Below are positions 8,328-34,656 of a DNA stretch of 38,815 bases, piece by piece; positions within the stretch are counted from its first letter, which is position 1, and each line of letters begins with the position of its first letter. The notes under the pieces are model-generated. The model had not been told where the DNA came from. It worked only from the letters and a program-made list of their open reading frames with translations, and did no database searches. Made by a program: the position numbers and the translations under genes. The stretch comes from an uncultured SAR86 cluster bacterium (GTDB lineage: Bacteria > Pseudomonadota > Gammaproteobacteria > Magnimaribacterales > Magnimaribacteraceae), in assembly GCA_938075195.1 (NCBI GenBank), contig CALJGK010000062.1:1-38815 (forward strand), written 5' to 3'.

Positions 8328-8356
8328 AAGATGGGGTTAATCCAAAGATTTTCAAC
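8328..8356 (-). promoter_or_regulatory. sigma-32 (heat-shock) promoter of clpPX
   Basis: The minus strand reads GTTGAA, 14 nt, then CCCCATCTT. The -10 element matches CCCCATNT fully and the -35 differs from CTTGAA by one base. The -35 overlaps the TGA stop of tig. E. coli clpP is a sigma-32 gene, which supports the reading. Confidence 0.75.
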
Positions 8357-9656
8357 CATAAGTTCCTGAAACACAATCTTCATATGAAATGCTCTCTTCT
8401 GAAGATTTTGCTTCAGTTAGCAAGGCTTCTACTACTTGTTCCTCTAACGAAATTGATTCTATATTTCTAAGTTGCTCTTCATCAGAATAAAAATAATTAA
8501 TAACCTGTTGTGGATCTTTATAGTTTTTTGCCCTTTCTTCTATAATTTCTTTTACCTTATCTGCATCTGGTTTTAATTCTTTATCTTCTATTATTTTGTT
8601 GAGAAGGATACCTACCTTTACTCTTTTTGTGGCTTCATCCGAAAAAGTTTCATTTGGAAACAAGTCTTCTTTAATTTCTTTAGGATCCATTCCCATTCTT
8701 CTTGCTGTATCTTGTTTCATATTGGAAATTTCAGAATCAATCATTGCAGAAGGAACTTCAAATTCGTTAACTTCAATCAAAGCATCAAAAAGACTTTGTT
8801 TGACCTTCCCTTTAAGAATGTTTTCTAAATCTTCTTCTAGTTTAGTGCGAACTTCTTTTTTATAAGAATCTACATCTTCAGCCTCTATTCCTGTGCTCTT
8901 GAAAAACTCTTCATTAAGTTCAGGCAATTTAGGAGACAAAACTTCATTTACTTCTGTGTCAAAAGACACGGGTTTTGAAGCAAGCTCTTTCTTTCCGTAA
9001 TCTTCAGGAAAATTTAACTCTAAAATCTTTTTATCACCTTTCTTAAGTCCAATTAGTCCCTCTTCAAAACCTTTAATCATCGACTTCGATCCTATTTCAA
9101 CAGAGAAGTCTTCAGCCGTCCCTCCTTCAAATTCTTCTCCTTCTATTCTTCCTACAAAATTAATTTTGATCTGATCACCATCTTTAGAAGCTTCATCTAC
9201 GGGCTCCCATTGACTCATTCGTTTCTGGAGGTTATTGATAGTTTTATCTAAATCTTCATCAGTTATGTCACAGAGGAAATTAGTAAAAGAAATTTTACTG
9301 ATCTTAGCTAAAGAAACTTCTGGATATACTTCGAAAGTTGCTTTGAATTTAGCATCCTTGCCCTCATCAAGTGATTCTGGAATTAGGTTAGGCCTGCTAA
9401 CAATCTTGAGATCTTTTTCTTGAGCAAGTTTCGAAAACGTCTTACTTGCCAAATCCCAGATCACTTCTTGCCTTATTTCAGGTCCGAACATGCTAGATAC
9501 TACATCCATAGGGGCTTTTCCCTTTCTGAAACCTTTAAGCTTCGAATCTTTTTGCGCGGCCTTAAGTTTTGTTGATACTTGTTCTTCAATGTCTTTATTG
9601 GGAACCACTATATTCAAGCTTTGATTTATTTCAGCTTTTGATTTGAAAAATTTCAT
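8352..9656 (-). CDS. tig: trigger factor, ribosome-associated chaperone and prolyl isomerase
   Basis: Trigger factor binds ribosomal protein L23 at the exit tunnel and shields nascent chains. The 434 residues match the family. The ribosome-binding signature LKGFRKGKAPMDVV is at about residues 39-52. The FKBP-type isomerase domain spans about 150-245 (GDQIKINFVGRIEGEEFEGG, then FPEDYG). The helical C-terminal chaperone arms follow. The start codon lies only 13 nt after the CCA end of tRNA-His, with a poor GGAT SD-like sequence between, so the mRNA leader is probably created by tRNA 3' processing or by a promoter inside or before the tRNA. It is followed by clpP. Confidence 0.96.
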   Translation of the reverse strand: MKFFKSKAEINQSLNIVVPNKDIEEQVSTKLKAAQKDSKLKGFRKGKAPMDVVSSMFGPEIRQEVIWDLASKTFSKLAQEKDLKIVSRPNLIPESLDEGKDAKFKATFEVYPEVSLAKISKISFTNFLCDITDEDLDKTINNLQKRMSQWEPVDEASKDGDQIKINFVGRIEGEEFEGGTAEDFSVEIGSKSMIKGFEEGLIGLKKGDKKILELNFPEDYGKKELASKPVSFDTEVNEVLSPKLPELNEEFFKSTGIEAEDVDSYKKEVRTKLEEDLENILKGKVKQSLFDALIEVNEFEVPSAMIDSEISNMKQDTARRMGMDPKEIKEDLFPNETFSDEATKRVKVGILLNKIIEDKELKPDADKVKEIIEERAKNYKDPQQVINYFYSDEEQLRNIESISLEEQVVEALLTEAKSSEESISYEDCVSGTYG

Positions 9657-9669
9657 ATTTTATCCATTT

Positions 9670-9746
9670 TGGGGTGGACGATGGGGCTCGAACCCACGAC
9701 CACTGGAATCACAATCCAGGGCTCTACCAACTGAGCTACGCCCACC
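9670..9746 (-). tRNA. tRNA-His (anticodon GTG)
   Basis: The minus strand gives a complete cloverleaf with GGTGGGCG at the 5' end, including the extra G-1 typical of tRNA-His, anticodon stem CTGGA/TCCAG with loop TTGTGAT, T-arm GGTTCGAGCC and an encoded CCA. One G-T pair lies in the acceptor stem. It directly precedes tig. Confidence 0.97.
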
Positions 9747-10130: not shown

Positions 10131-10964
10131 CTAAAATTTAGGTCTAAAACCTATGTCCTTTTGATCATATAAAACCCAAGAATCAAATATATCAGGATTT
10201 TCTAAACAAGAACCTATCTCATTAAACTCTGCAAATACATTTTGAAAGTTATTTGTAAAATTCTGATTTTGAACCTCCATAGCTTCTGCCGATAGCGCCC
10301 ATTCCCCCCATATATGACTTGCAGCAACATCAGAATGTGAAGCATCTCCAGACCTTCGATCAAAATAAACACCATAATGATAGCCGGTCCCTTCTAGCTT
10401 TGAAGCTTTAATCTTAGCCGTATGCATTGGAATAAAATTCTCTAAATCATTTCTTCCAGCTGAATTCTTATAACTGCAAGTCGAGTATTGACTATAAAAA
10501 TACCCTGAATCATTGGCTTTACCGAAATGTTTAGAGCTTATTGGAATAAGAATATCCCAGGCATTTCTGCCTTCGCCATCACATGCCATAACATTTTGGT
10601 ATTTCTCTGACCATGCTGCAACAGAATCGTCTTGTGACCAGTCACTCCAGGCTTCGTTGGCCGAATCTTTTGAATTCCATTCGAGTTCCCACCACATACT
10701 TGGACCAAACGCATTATCCTCTTTTAAAGGATCATATAAATAGGAACCTCTTAGCTCTTTAGACTTAGGGAGATCTCTCCACGCTTCAATCATATTAGAA
10801 AGATTTAATTTGCTGTATTCACTGCCTTTGGTGCATGAAACGAATTCAATGTAGAAAGGCCCTGGGTTATGCTCTTGATCAGCAATAGATTGAGTCTCTT
10901 CTGAGCAAGAAAGTAATGCCCCCAAAAATAGAAATGAGAGTAAGGCTTGATAGATATTTTTCAT
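10131..10964 (-). CDS. predicted lipoprotein with two tandem homologous domains, function unknown
   Basis: I do not recognise this family. The N terminus MKNIYQALLSFLFLGALLSC is a lipoprotein signal with lipobox LLSC, so Cys20 is probably lipidated. The mature part seems to hold two copies of a domain of about 105 residues. Copy 1 starts at FYIEFVSC (about 38) and ends at ACDGEGRNAWDILI. Copy 2 starts at FYSQYSTC (about 155) and ends at SCLENPDIFDSWVLY. Each has an early and a late Cys, a GSYLY or GTGYHY strand and a Trp-rich WELEW or WGEWAL segment. The pattern suggests a dimeric alpha/beta-barrel fold made in one chain, but that is inference. The SD AAAGGA is good. Its 5' neighbour is tRNA-Arg, 66 nt away. 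Confidence 0.8.
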   Translation of the reverse strand: MKNIYQALLSFLFLGALLSCSEETQSIADQEHNPGPFYIEFVSCTKGSEYSKLNLSNMIEAWRDLPKSKELRGSYLYDPLKEDNAFGPSMWWELEWNSKDSANEAWSDWSQDDSVAAWSEKYQNVMACDGEGRNAWDILIPISSKHFGKANDSGYFYSQYSTCSYKNSAGRNDLENFIPMHTAKIKASKLEGTGYHYGVYFDRRSGDASHSDVAASHIWGEWALSAEAMEVQNQNFTNNFQNVFAEFNEIGSCLENPDIFDSWVLYDQKDIGFRPKF

Positions 10965-11030: not shown

Positions 11031-11108
11031 TGGCCTCCTCGGCAGGACTCGAACCTGCGACCCACTGCTTAGAAGGCAGTTGCTCTAATCCAACTGAGCT
11101 ACGAGGAG
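11031..11108 (-). tRNA. tRNA-Arg (anticodon TCT)
   Basis: The minus strand folds with acceptor stem CTCCTCG/CGAGGAG, D-arm GCTCAGTTGGATTAGAGC, anticodon stem ACTGC/GCAGT with loop CTTCTAA, T-arm CAGGTTCGAGTCCTG, discriminator G and an encoded CCA. The TCT anticodon reads AGA/AGG, codons heavily used in this AT-rich window. Confidence 0.97.
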
Positions 11109-11116
11109 ACGGGCGA

Positions 11117-11122
11117 ATTATA
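11117..11122 (-). promoter_or_regulatory. -10 element of tRNA-Arg with GC-rich discriminator
   Basis: A perfect TATAAT on the minus strand lies 8 nt before the tRNA 5' end, followed by TCGCCCGT. A GC-rich discriminator after the -10 is typical of stringently controlled stable-RNA promoters. The -35 is poor (TTTTTA-like at 17 nt). Confidence 0.6.
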
Positions 11123-11151: not shown

Positions 11152-12423
11152 TTAAAGTGATCGTGAAGCTAGATAAGGTTTTATATCAATTTCAGATTGA
11201 ATGGCCTGAACTTCATCAGCGAGTAAACTTGCGGAGCCCATAGCCAAAGTCCAACCGAGGTGTCCTTGGCCGCAATTGACATACAAACCATCTATTTTAG
11301 TTTTTCCAATAAATGGGAGGCCATCAGAACTCATAGGCCTAAATCCATGCCATATTTTTCCTTCATCTACATCGATTTGTGAATATAGATTAGGATAAAC
11401 ATTTTTTAGCATTTCATTCAGATAAGTTACTCTCTTTTGGTGAATAGAATCATCAAAACCAACAAATTCAGCTGTTCCTGCTACTCTAATTCTATTTTGA
11501 AAAGGCGTGATAGCTGTATGAATACTTTCGTCAACAATAGAATGGCTCGGTTTGTTATTGAGGCCTGCAGTATCAAAGGTTAAAGAATAGCCTTTCACTG
11601 GCCTAACCGACAAATTAAGTCCAGTGTTTTTTAAAAGGTCTCTAGACCAGCTGCCCGCACAAACAACTACTCTTTTTGTTTGAAGAATGGCCCTGTCTGT
11701 GACAATGCAATTCACTTTTCCTTTATTCACTAAAATCTTATTAATTTTAGTATTGGTAAGAATCCTTCCGCCATTTTTTCTAATTAAGTCTTCTAAGTGC
11801 TTACAGAATTTATAAGCATCTCCAGTTTCGTCACCCGGAAAGTGCATACCCCCTATAAGTTGATCTTCAATATCTTTCAGTTGAGGTTCTTTCTCTATTA
11901 ACTGATGAGTATCTAATATTGATATTGGATTTGAATTATTAAAAATCCTTTCTTGAAGTGAAATAGCTTTATCCAAATTTTCTTGGCTTCTATAAATCTT
12001 AATAGTTCCTATTTCTGTTTCATCATAAGAAAGGTCAAACTTAGCCCTGAGCTCTTTAGTAATTTCTTTACTATAAGTACCTAATGAAAATAAGTTCTGA
12101 GTTATTCTGTCAAAATTCTTAGGTGTAGAGTTGTATAGAAATTTCATTCCCCAAAAGAACAGCGAAGGTAAAGCTGATGGACTGAGAGTCATAGGAGAAT
12201 CTTTTTTTCCTAAACCTGAAAGGATTTGAAGGATATCTGAAGGTGAATTCCAGGGCATAGATTGAGAAGGAGTGAGCATTCCTGCGTTGGCAAAACTTGC
12301 AGAACTAGCCACATCGGCATCTCTTTCTAAGATAAGGACATCTTCGCCTCTAGACATCAAAGTATAAGCGGTGGCTAATCCTTGAAGACCTCCGCCGACT
12401 ATTACAATTTGATCTTTGTTCAC
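11152..12423 (-). CDS. DadA-like FAD-dependent amino-acid dehydrogenase/oxidase (copy 1)
   Basis: This belongs to the DAO superfamily, which oxidises D-amino acids or other secondary or primary amines to imino acids and passes electrons to the respiratory chain. The FAD-binding motif VIVGGGLQGLATAYTLMSRG starts at residue 7, followed by ILERD. The DadA-like end motif GLYVNCGQGHLGWTLAMGSA is present, as is HGFRPMSSDGLPFIGKT. The length is 423 residues. The start is a GTG at 12423, only 6 nt after the CCA end of tRNA-Pro, and no SD fits in between. A later start would remove the FAD loop, so the GTG must be used or be very close to it. True substrate is unknown. A diverged paralogue lies at 33469-34656. 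Confidence 0.88.
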   Translation of the reverse strand: MNKDQIVIVGGGLQGLATAYTLMSRGEDVLILERDADVASSASFANAGMLTPSQSMPWNSPSDILQILSGLGKKDSPMTLSPSALPSLFFWGMKFLYNSTPKNFDRITQNLFSLGTYSKEITKELRAKFDLSYDETEIGTIKIYRSQENLDKAISLQERIFNNSNPISILDTHQLIEKEPQLKDIEDQLIGGMHFPGDETGDAYKFCKHLEDLIRKNGGRILTNTKINKILVNKGKVNCIVTDRAILQTKRVVVCAGSWSRDLLKNTGLNLSVRPVKGYSLTFDTAGLNNKPSHSIVDESIHTAITPFQNRIRVAGTAEFVGFDDSIHQKRVTYLNEMLKNVYPNLYSQIDVDEGKIWHGFRPMSSDGLPFIGKTKIDGLYVNCGQGHLGWTLAMGSASLLADEVQAIQSEIDIKPYLASRSL

Positions 12424-12429
12424 TTTAAG

Positions 12430-12506
12430 TGGTCGGGGCAGCAGGATTTGAACCTGCGACCACCTGCTCCCAAAGCAGGTGCGCTACCAGGCTGCGCTAT
12501 GCCCCG
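12430..12506 (-). tRNA. tRNA-Pro (anticodon TGG)
   Basis: The minus strand gives acceptor stem CGGGGCA/TGCCCCG, D-arm GCGCAGCCTGGTAGCGC, anticodon stem CCTGC/GCAGG with loop TTTGGGA, T-arm CAGGTTCAAATCCTG, discriminator A and an encoded CCA. The 3' end is 6 nt from the GTG of the DadA-like gene. Confidence 0.97.
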
Positions 12507-12516
12507 AAAAAGTTGA

Positions 12517-12545
12517 ATTATACAGATATAAAAAAAAGGTGTTGA
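12517..12545 (-). promoter_or_regulatory. sigma-70 promoter of tRNA-Pro (and probably the DadA-like gene)
   Basis: The minus strand shows TCAACA (4/6), a 17-nt spacer and a perfect TATAAT, ending 10 nt before the mature tRNA 5' end. It sits right after the terminator of the upstream TBDR gene. The downstream oxidase has no other visible promoter. Confidence 0.7.
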
Positions 12546-12557
12546 GGAATTTTAAGC

Positions 12558-12584
12558 AAAAAAAAGGCTCCTAAAATAGGAGCC
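12558..12584 (-). terminator. Rho-independent terminator of TBDR gene 2
   Basis: On the minus strand GGCTCCTA, a 3-nt loop and TAGGAGCC are followed by eight T residues. It lies 17 nt after the TBDR stop codon and isolates that gene from tRNA-Pro. Confidence 0.93.
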
Positions 12585-33468: not shown

Positions 33469-34656
33469 TTAAAAGTAATTTGAAATTATTTTTCCTGAAG
33501 CAAAAGAAAGCGTCCAACCATAGAATCCATGCCCAGAATTTATATATACGCCTTCTAAATTAGATGGGCCGATAAAAGGAATGCTTGAAGGGGTTAGAGG
33601 TCTGTCACCTGACCATGAATCTATTTTTACTGGATTATAATCTGCAAGATCTGGTGCTACTCTTTGTGCCAACTCTATAAGTTCTTGGATTCTTTTATGA
33701 TCATTAGTGTTGTTTCGAAAAAAATCGGCAAAGCCTGTTATTCTTATTTTCTTACCAAGTTTAGTAAAGAGTACCTTTTGATCTGATAGAGTTAGACTCA
33801 TATCAAAACTAACCTTTCCTCTTGGCAATGTTAAGCTGTAACCCCTTGCAGGGGTTATAGGAGATGGAGATTCAACTATATTCTCTGTTGATGACCCTCC
33901 GCAAACTATTATCTTTTCTGTTTCAATGAAGCCTTCATCAGTAGTCAAGCCTACTACTTTTGAATTATTATTTTTCAGTCCTTTTACATAAGTTTTAAAA
34001 TGGAAATTAGTTCCATTTTCTATAAGCCAATCTTTAAGACCTCTGCAAAAGAGAAGTGTATCTCCAGCTTCATCTGATTCTGAAAATATTGCTCCCGCAT
34101 ATCTATTATTCAGGGTTCCTATCGCTGGCTCTAAGGAGATCGCTTCTTCAATAGACATTGCCCTATTATCATTACCAAGGTTTTGTTTAAGCTTTAAATA
34201 TTTTATCTCATTCTTAAAATCCTTCTCTTTTTCAAAAAGCGCTATTTTTGAACTCCTCTGATGATCAAATTTTAGATTTAAGTGATCTTTCATTTCCTTA
34301 AGTAAAGACATAGAGGACAGAGACAGTTCAGCAAGCTGTAATTGATTTTGGTTATGCTTTTTTCTAGTGCAGTTAGCAGCGAAATGCTTTAGCCATTTTA
34401 AAGAGTTATGGTTAGGAGGGAGGTTAAAGCGGATACCTAAATCTCTATTCAAGACTATATTAAGAAGCTTTGGTAAAAGGCTTGGCTTCCCAAGTGGATC
34501 AGAGAAGCAATAAGAGAGCTGACCCCCATTTGCAAAACTAGCTCCACAAGCAACATCATGCTCTTTTTCAATGATTGTTACTTTATGACCTTTTTTGCAC
34601 AGATAATAGGCTGTGGTTAATCCAACAACTCCCGCTCCTATGATGTGAATGTGCAT
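33469..34656 (-). CDS. DadA-like FAD-dependent amino-acid/amine dehydrogenase (copy 2)
   Basis: This 395-residue member of the DAO superfamily starts HIIGAGVVGLTTAYYLCKKGHKVTIIEKE, the FAD-binding fold at the extreme N terminus. The conserved ACGASFANGGQLSYCFSDPLG and the end motif GVYINSGHGFYGWTLSFASG are DadA-like, as is SGDRPLTPSSIPFIGPS. It resembles copy 1 (11152-12423) in layout but differs in most positions and is about 28 residues shorter. It follows the LysR regulator gene by 54 nt and is probably controlled by it. A D-amino acid, or a gamma-glutamyl-amine as in PuuB, are the likeliest substrate classes; the sequence does not decide. Confidence 0.88.
   Translation of the reverse strand: MHIHIIGAGVVGLTTAYYLCKKGHKVTIIEKEHDVACGASFANGGQLSYCFSDPLGKPSLLPKLLNIVLNRDLGIRFNLPPNHNSLKWLKHFAANCTRKKHNQNQLQLAELSLSSMSLLKEMKDHLNLKFDHQRSSKIALFEKEKDFKNEIKYLKLKQNLGNDNRAMSIEEAISLEPAIGTLNNRYAGAIFSESDEAGDTLLFCRGLKDWLIENGTNFHFKTYVKGLKNNNSKVVGLTTDEGFIETEKIIVCGGSSTENIVESPSPITPARGYSLTLPRGKVSFDMSLTLSDQKVLFTKLGKKIRITGFADFFRNNTNDHKRIQELIELAQRVAPDLADYNPVKIDSWSGDRPLTPSSIPFIGPSNLEGVYINSGHGFYGWTLSFASGKIISNYF

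Follow-up and report, generated by a model that had tools for sequence, protein, structure and literature searches.

The tRNA-Pro(TGG) gene and a DadA-like oxidase gene of this SAR86 genome probably form one unit, at odds that we put at roughly 60%, in which excision of the tRNA would leave a near-leaderless oxidase mRNA, and this tRNA punctuation appears to recur across the SAR86 family. The basis for this reading is the gene order, conserved short spacers free of SD motifs, a conserved -10 box, a genome-wide leaderless signature and the presence of RNase E. The window (the whole stretch of DNA that was analysed, 38,815 nucleotides) is contig C62 of a 67-contig, 1.39 Mb SAR86 assembly. On its minus strand a TonB receptor gene is followed by a terminator-like hairpin, TATAAT, tRNA-Pro(TGG), the hexamer CTTAAA and the GTG of the oxidase gene; 3' of the oxidase gene lie tRNA-Arg(TCT), genes for a 277-aa protein and an acylphosphatase, tRNA-His and trigger factor. 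The features used below are as follows (window coordinates).

12558..12584, minus strand: terminator-like hairpin GGCTCCTATTTTAGGAGCC with a run of 8 T after it; end of the upstream TonB-receptor transcript
12540..12545, minus strand: possible -35 box TCAACA, from the promoter scan
12517..12522, minus strand: -10 box TATAAT, 10 nt 5' of tRNA-Pro, from the promoter scan and relatives
12430..12506, minus strand: tRNA-Pro(TGG) with CCA encoded in the gene (RF00005, 70.9 bits)
12424..12429, minus strand: 6-nt spacer CTTAAA, SD-free; predicted 0-6 nt 5' leader of the processed mRNA
12421..12423, minus strand: GTG start codon of the oxidase gene
11152..12423, minus strand: DadA-like FAD-dependent oxidoreductase, GTG start, 423 aa (PF01266, E=1.1e-66)
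11117..11122, minus strand: TATAAT -10 box of the tRNA-Arg(TCT) unit
11031..11108, minus strand: tRNA-Arg(TCT), 43 nt 3' of the oxidase gene
9670..9745, minus strand: tRNA-His(GTG), 13 nt 5' of tig
8352..9656, minus strand: tig (trigger factor), used as a comparison junction

An earlier note on this DNA had placed the GTG 6 nt after the tRNA-Pro CCA with no SD motif in between, and both points hold: the spacer CTTAAA runs from 12429 to 12424, directly before the GTG at 12423..12421, and is SD-free. Within the oxidase ORF (12423..11152) this GTG is the only in-frame ATG, GTG or TTG back to the preceding stop. The note had named translation from a point further downstream as a threat to its own reading; a start far downstream is unlikely, since the FAD-binding glycine motif VIVGGGLQG already starts inside the first ten residues. 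An in-frame start inside tRNA-Pro was ruled out, as no ATG, GTG or TTG occurs there and the 7-nt spacer of locus L011 breaks the frame. Around the oxidase start, tRNAs were the sole Rfam matches and no special RNA structure was detected, the 5' part of the mRNA folding no better than shuffled sequence. The nearest named relatives of the protein come from SAR86 cluster or uncultured Gammaproteobacteria genomes. It scores 377 bits against NF001933 (D-amino acid dehydrogenase), short of the cut-off of 383; it is thus predicted to be DadA-like and is not classed as DadA proper.

The promoter proposed for the unit, TCAACA-N17-TATAAT, stood up in part. When 3 kb were scanned and matches were counted as positions of 12 in the -35 and -10 boxes, this element (12545..12517) was the only 10-of-12 match, while matches overall were at the level of chance (8 found, 8.5 expected). 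TATAAT lies shortly 5' of tRNA-Pro in every own-genus relative whose upstream sequence is readable, and the -10 box is therefore real. TCAACA is found in the four closest genomes only, in one of which (L003) its spacer to the -10 box is 14 nt, so the -35 assignment is not secure. The terminator-like hairpin (12584..12558), which has counterparts at the equivalent position in the majority of relatives of the genus, separates the tRNA-Pro/oxidase unit from the TonB-receptor gene. Thus a promoter lies 5' of tRNA-Pro, and neither promoter nor terminator was found between the tRNA and the coding sequence.

The earlier note had suggested looking at this junction in related genomes, and our comparison covered 24 SAR86-family genomes that have tRNA-Pro ahead of a dadA-like gene. 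Spacers of 3-12 nt are found in 22 of the 24, drawn from several genera, and 15 genomes have exactly 6 nt; no SD motif occurs in any of these 22 spacers of 12 nt or less. Spacer letters vary between genomes (CTTAAA, GTTATC, GATAGA, TTTCAGAAA), as does the dadA start codon (GTG, TTG or ATG across the family, with GTG or TTG in most own-genus genomes). Since the spacers differ in sequence yet remain short, the junction goes beyond chance. The two exceptions have spacers of 26 nt, with AGGA 5' of the start, and of 74 nt (genome G020), with TATAAT 8 nt before the ATG; a further genome, G024, has a dadA-like gene with no upstream tRNA, and CATAAT lies 8 nt 5' of its probable ATG. The E. coli counterpart tRNA-Pro(UGG), proM, lies 146 nt 5' of the next gene.

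A tRNA census of the window's genome and of the single-contig relative G004, with the junctions then followed family-wide, found tRNAs abutting coding-sequence starts at several genes, comprising three conserved junctions plus tig. tRNA-Arg(CCT) precedes an acyl-CoA carboxylase gene at 28 of 28 loci with a spacer of 4-13 nt, mostly 5-7, and tRNA-Lys(TTT) precedes crcB at 27 of 27 loci with a spacer of 7-12 nt, mostly 7. Both of these junctions have ATG starts, and an SD motif is very rare at them, the exception being L180 (12 nt, AGGA). Ahead of tig, tRNA-His is found in 28 of 28 cases at 11-22 nt and an SD-like AAGGAT, GAGGAT or TAGGAAA is mostly kept; the 16-nt spacer between tRNA-Gln and prs in G004 contains AGGAG. 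Longer spacers (at least 11 nt) thus tend to carry an SD motif, and the three shortest junctions are without one. The pairing of tRNA-Arg(CCT) with the carboxylase gene is not ancient in the order, as the carboxylase gene follows another coding sequence in family f3. As side observations on this tRNA, its encoded CCA reads CTA in several SAR86 genomes (L132-L137, L141), and 3' repair or CCA addition would therefore be needed after the cut; the start of contig C10 and the end of contig C63 in G000 share the same tRNA-Arg(CCT) junction, so these contigs probably overlap.

Start-site statistics point to leaderless expression well beyond these junctions. Among 371 unambiguous starts in 1.2 Mb of G004, 26% have an SD motif versus 8% in shuffled sequence. 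In 19 genes a -10-like hexamer has its first base exactly at -12, versus 3.0 expected per position (Poisson 5.6e-10), and only 1 of these 19 has an SD motif. Order-level statistics (genomes G004, G026 and G030) gave the same -12 peak in two other families (10 versus 1.45 and 8 versus 1.6), where SD use falls to 9% and 17% of starts. In TA-led genes, a -10 box some 12 nt 5' of the start codon gives rise to leaderless bacterial mRNA (PMC3160421). Weak SD use together with the -12 peak suggests that many genes in the SAR86 order may be transcriptionally leaderless.

Leaderless mRNAs are defined by a leader under 10 nt (PMC4681348), and with a spacer of 6 nt any cut 3' of the CCA would leave 6 nt or less. 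The start codons bear on this reading in both directions. Leaderless GUG and UUG are translated poorly in E. coli (PMC9031893), and by E. coli rules the GTG and TTG dadA starts of most own-genus genomes count against a near-leaderless message. GTG is enriched among the G004 leaderless candidates (7/26 versus 20/345, Fisher p 0.001), and leaderless starts in P. acnes are 68% AUG, 29% GUG and 3% UUG (PMC3848588). TTG is absent among the G004 candidates, and the dadA start of G004 itself is TTG.

From this anatomy we infer the single transcript, its cutting, the cutting enzyme and the translation of the product. Transcription would begin just 5' of tRNA-Pro and run on into the oxidase gene. The folded tRNA, ending about 10 nt 5' of the start codon, would probably bar the 30S subunit until the tRNA is removed. 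RNase P would generate the tRNA 5' end, and the 3' cut would have to fall in the spacer if both tRNA and mRNA are to be used. RNase Z (TIGR02651) was found above the cut-off in none of 35 genomes; the best matches, considered as candidates for the 3' cutter and rejected, are proteins of 300-352 aa with N-terminal signal or membrane segments that resemble exported metallo-beta-lactamase-fold proteins. RNase E was found in 24 of the 35, including all four of high completeness, and with no RNase Z found it is the most likely cutter. Cuts at tRNA 3' ends in E. coli fall within a few nucleotides of the tRNA (PMC4681348), and an E. coli RNase E site lies 2 nt downstream of metU (PMC4191395). An endonuclease, most likely RNase E, would then cut the unpaired A/U-rich spacer and free the tRNA, exonucleases would trim its 3' tail, and the oxidase mRNA would be left with a leader of 0-6 nt and translated without an SD motif in a leaderless-type mode. 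The earlier note's central proposal, a shared transcript giving a near-leaderless mRNA, is thus well supported by the conserved anatomy and by the clade-wide leaderless signs; its placement of the mRNA 5' end directly after the CCA appears less likely than a cut within the spacer, given that RNase E is present and RNase Z was not found. Oxidase translation may be controlled by tRNA processing, or the arrangement could be constitutive.

Against this reading stand the 26- and 74-nt spacers, the one tRNA-less genome and the fact that short gaps are common in compact genomes. The main rival is accordingly genome compaction with an uncut message: the oxidase gene would have slid against the tRNA and be read through, translation would proceed without an SD motif from uncut RNA or decay products, and spacer length would be functionless. 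SAR86 is indeed dense: ORFs of 100 aa or more cover 89% of the sequence sampled. SD motifs are used sparingly throughout, and the gaps between tRNAs and coding sequences come in all lengths. The f3 carboxylase gene begins about 3 nt after a coding sequence and is SD-free, so this gene does without an SD motif even where no tRNA precedes it. We nevertheless consider compaction rather unlikely, as most spacers at three loci and in several genera remain within 3-12 nt despite sequence change, the SD motif tends to appear once spacers reach 11 nt, and the folded tRNA, lying at about -10, ought to impede the loading of ribosomes on uncut RNA.

Alternatively, the oxidase mRNA could start from a separate promoter within the tRNA gene, which would provide it with a short leader. 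An 8-of-12 match, TTGGGA-N16-TCAAAT, is readable inside tRNA-Pro, and the -10-like hexamers 8 nt before the ATG in G020 and G024 also speak for such a start. The internal match is dictated by the tRNA sequence and falls below the scan threshold, and tRNA-Pro is nearly invariant, leaving no visible selection for a promoter. We regard an internal start as improbable. A true switch, in which competition between maturation and readthrough or starvation-dependent processing sets oxidase output and couples amino-acid oxidation to tRNA-Pro supply, is permitted by the anatomy and by an oxidase gene resembling those of amino-acid catabolism but is very improbable, as no conserved regulatory element was seen in the spacer and the unrelated genes for CrcB and acyl-CoA carboxylase have the same layout, which suggests a general mode of making mRNA ends and not a dedicated circuit.

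Production of near-leaderless mRNA by tRNA excision invites comparison with mitochondria, where tRNA punctuation (Ojala, Montoya and Attardi 1981, as cited in PMC10941002) is the textbook source of leaderless mRNAs. As in mitochondria, tRNAs lie between genes, and their excision would set the 5' ends of mRNAs that are all but leaderless. Mitochondria free all RNAs from genome-length transcripts with RNase P and RNase Z, whereas in SAR86 just a subset of the tRNAs takes part, every unit has a -10 box to itself and the 3' cutter is probably RNase E. TA-led leaderless mRNAs (PMC3160421) are likewise SD-free and begin at the start codon or close to it, as in the -12 signature of SAR86; unlike theirs, the 5' end at the tRNA junction would arise by RNA processing and not by transcription start. 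MazF-made leaderless mRNAs (PMC9031893) also lose their leader to a nuclease, but MazF is a stress toxin whose role is disputed by later work, whereas housekeeping tRNA maturation would act at the SAR86 junction.

We tentatively propose that SAR86 may use a mitochondria-like tRNA punctuation, in which housekeeping tRNA maturation would make near-leaderless mRNAs for conserved metabolic genes and license their translation by the leaderless route. In known bacterial tRNA-mRNA co-transcripts of the E. coli thrT-tufB type, a tRNA and the protein gene 3' of it share a single promoter, and these messages have long leaders with an SD motif, unlike the SAR86 junction. A non-exhaustive literature search returned no precedent for bacterial leaderless mRNAs made by tRNA excision or for leaderless genes in SAR86. 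SAR86 is an abundant free-living bacterial group and a major gammaproteobacterial lineage of the ocean; if the proposal is true, some of its genes need tRNA maturation in order to be translated, and a leaderless mode of translation that is rare in E. coli is routine in such a lineage. The SAR86 tRNA junctions also offer a clean, testable set of natural constructs.

Beyond the oxidase gene, the gene after tRNA-Arg(TCT) is preceded by a leader of 66 nt that contains the SD motif AAGGA. The 277-aa protein between tRNA-Arg and acylphosphatase (10131-10964, minus strand) has no Pfam or NCBIfam match and is possibly a lipoprotein, judging by its N-terminus; in several relatives only some 400 nt separate tRNA-Arg from tRNA-His, which leaves no room for it. 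The Pro, Arg and His tRNAs of the window are separated by protein genes, whereas argX-hisR-leuT-proM of E. coli is a single tRNA cluster. In G004, tRNA-Arg(TCT) has an internal deletion of about 34 bp (L008 at about 2817-2860; G004:C1:595634-595676) and a second Arg(TCT) gene was not detected among the G004 tRNAs; the deletion is most likely an assembly error, and AGA decoding would otherwise have been lost. A second DAO-family protein in the window (33478-34650, minus strand) shares 30% identity with the oxidase.
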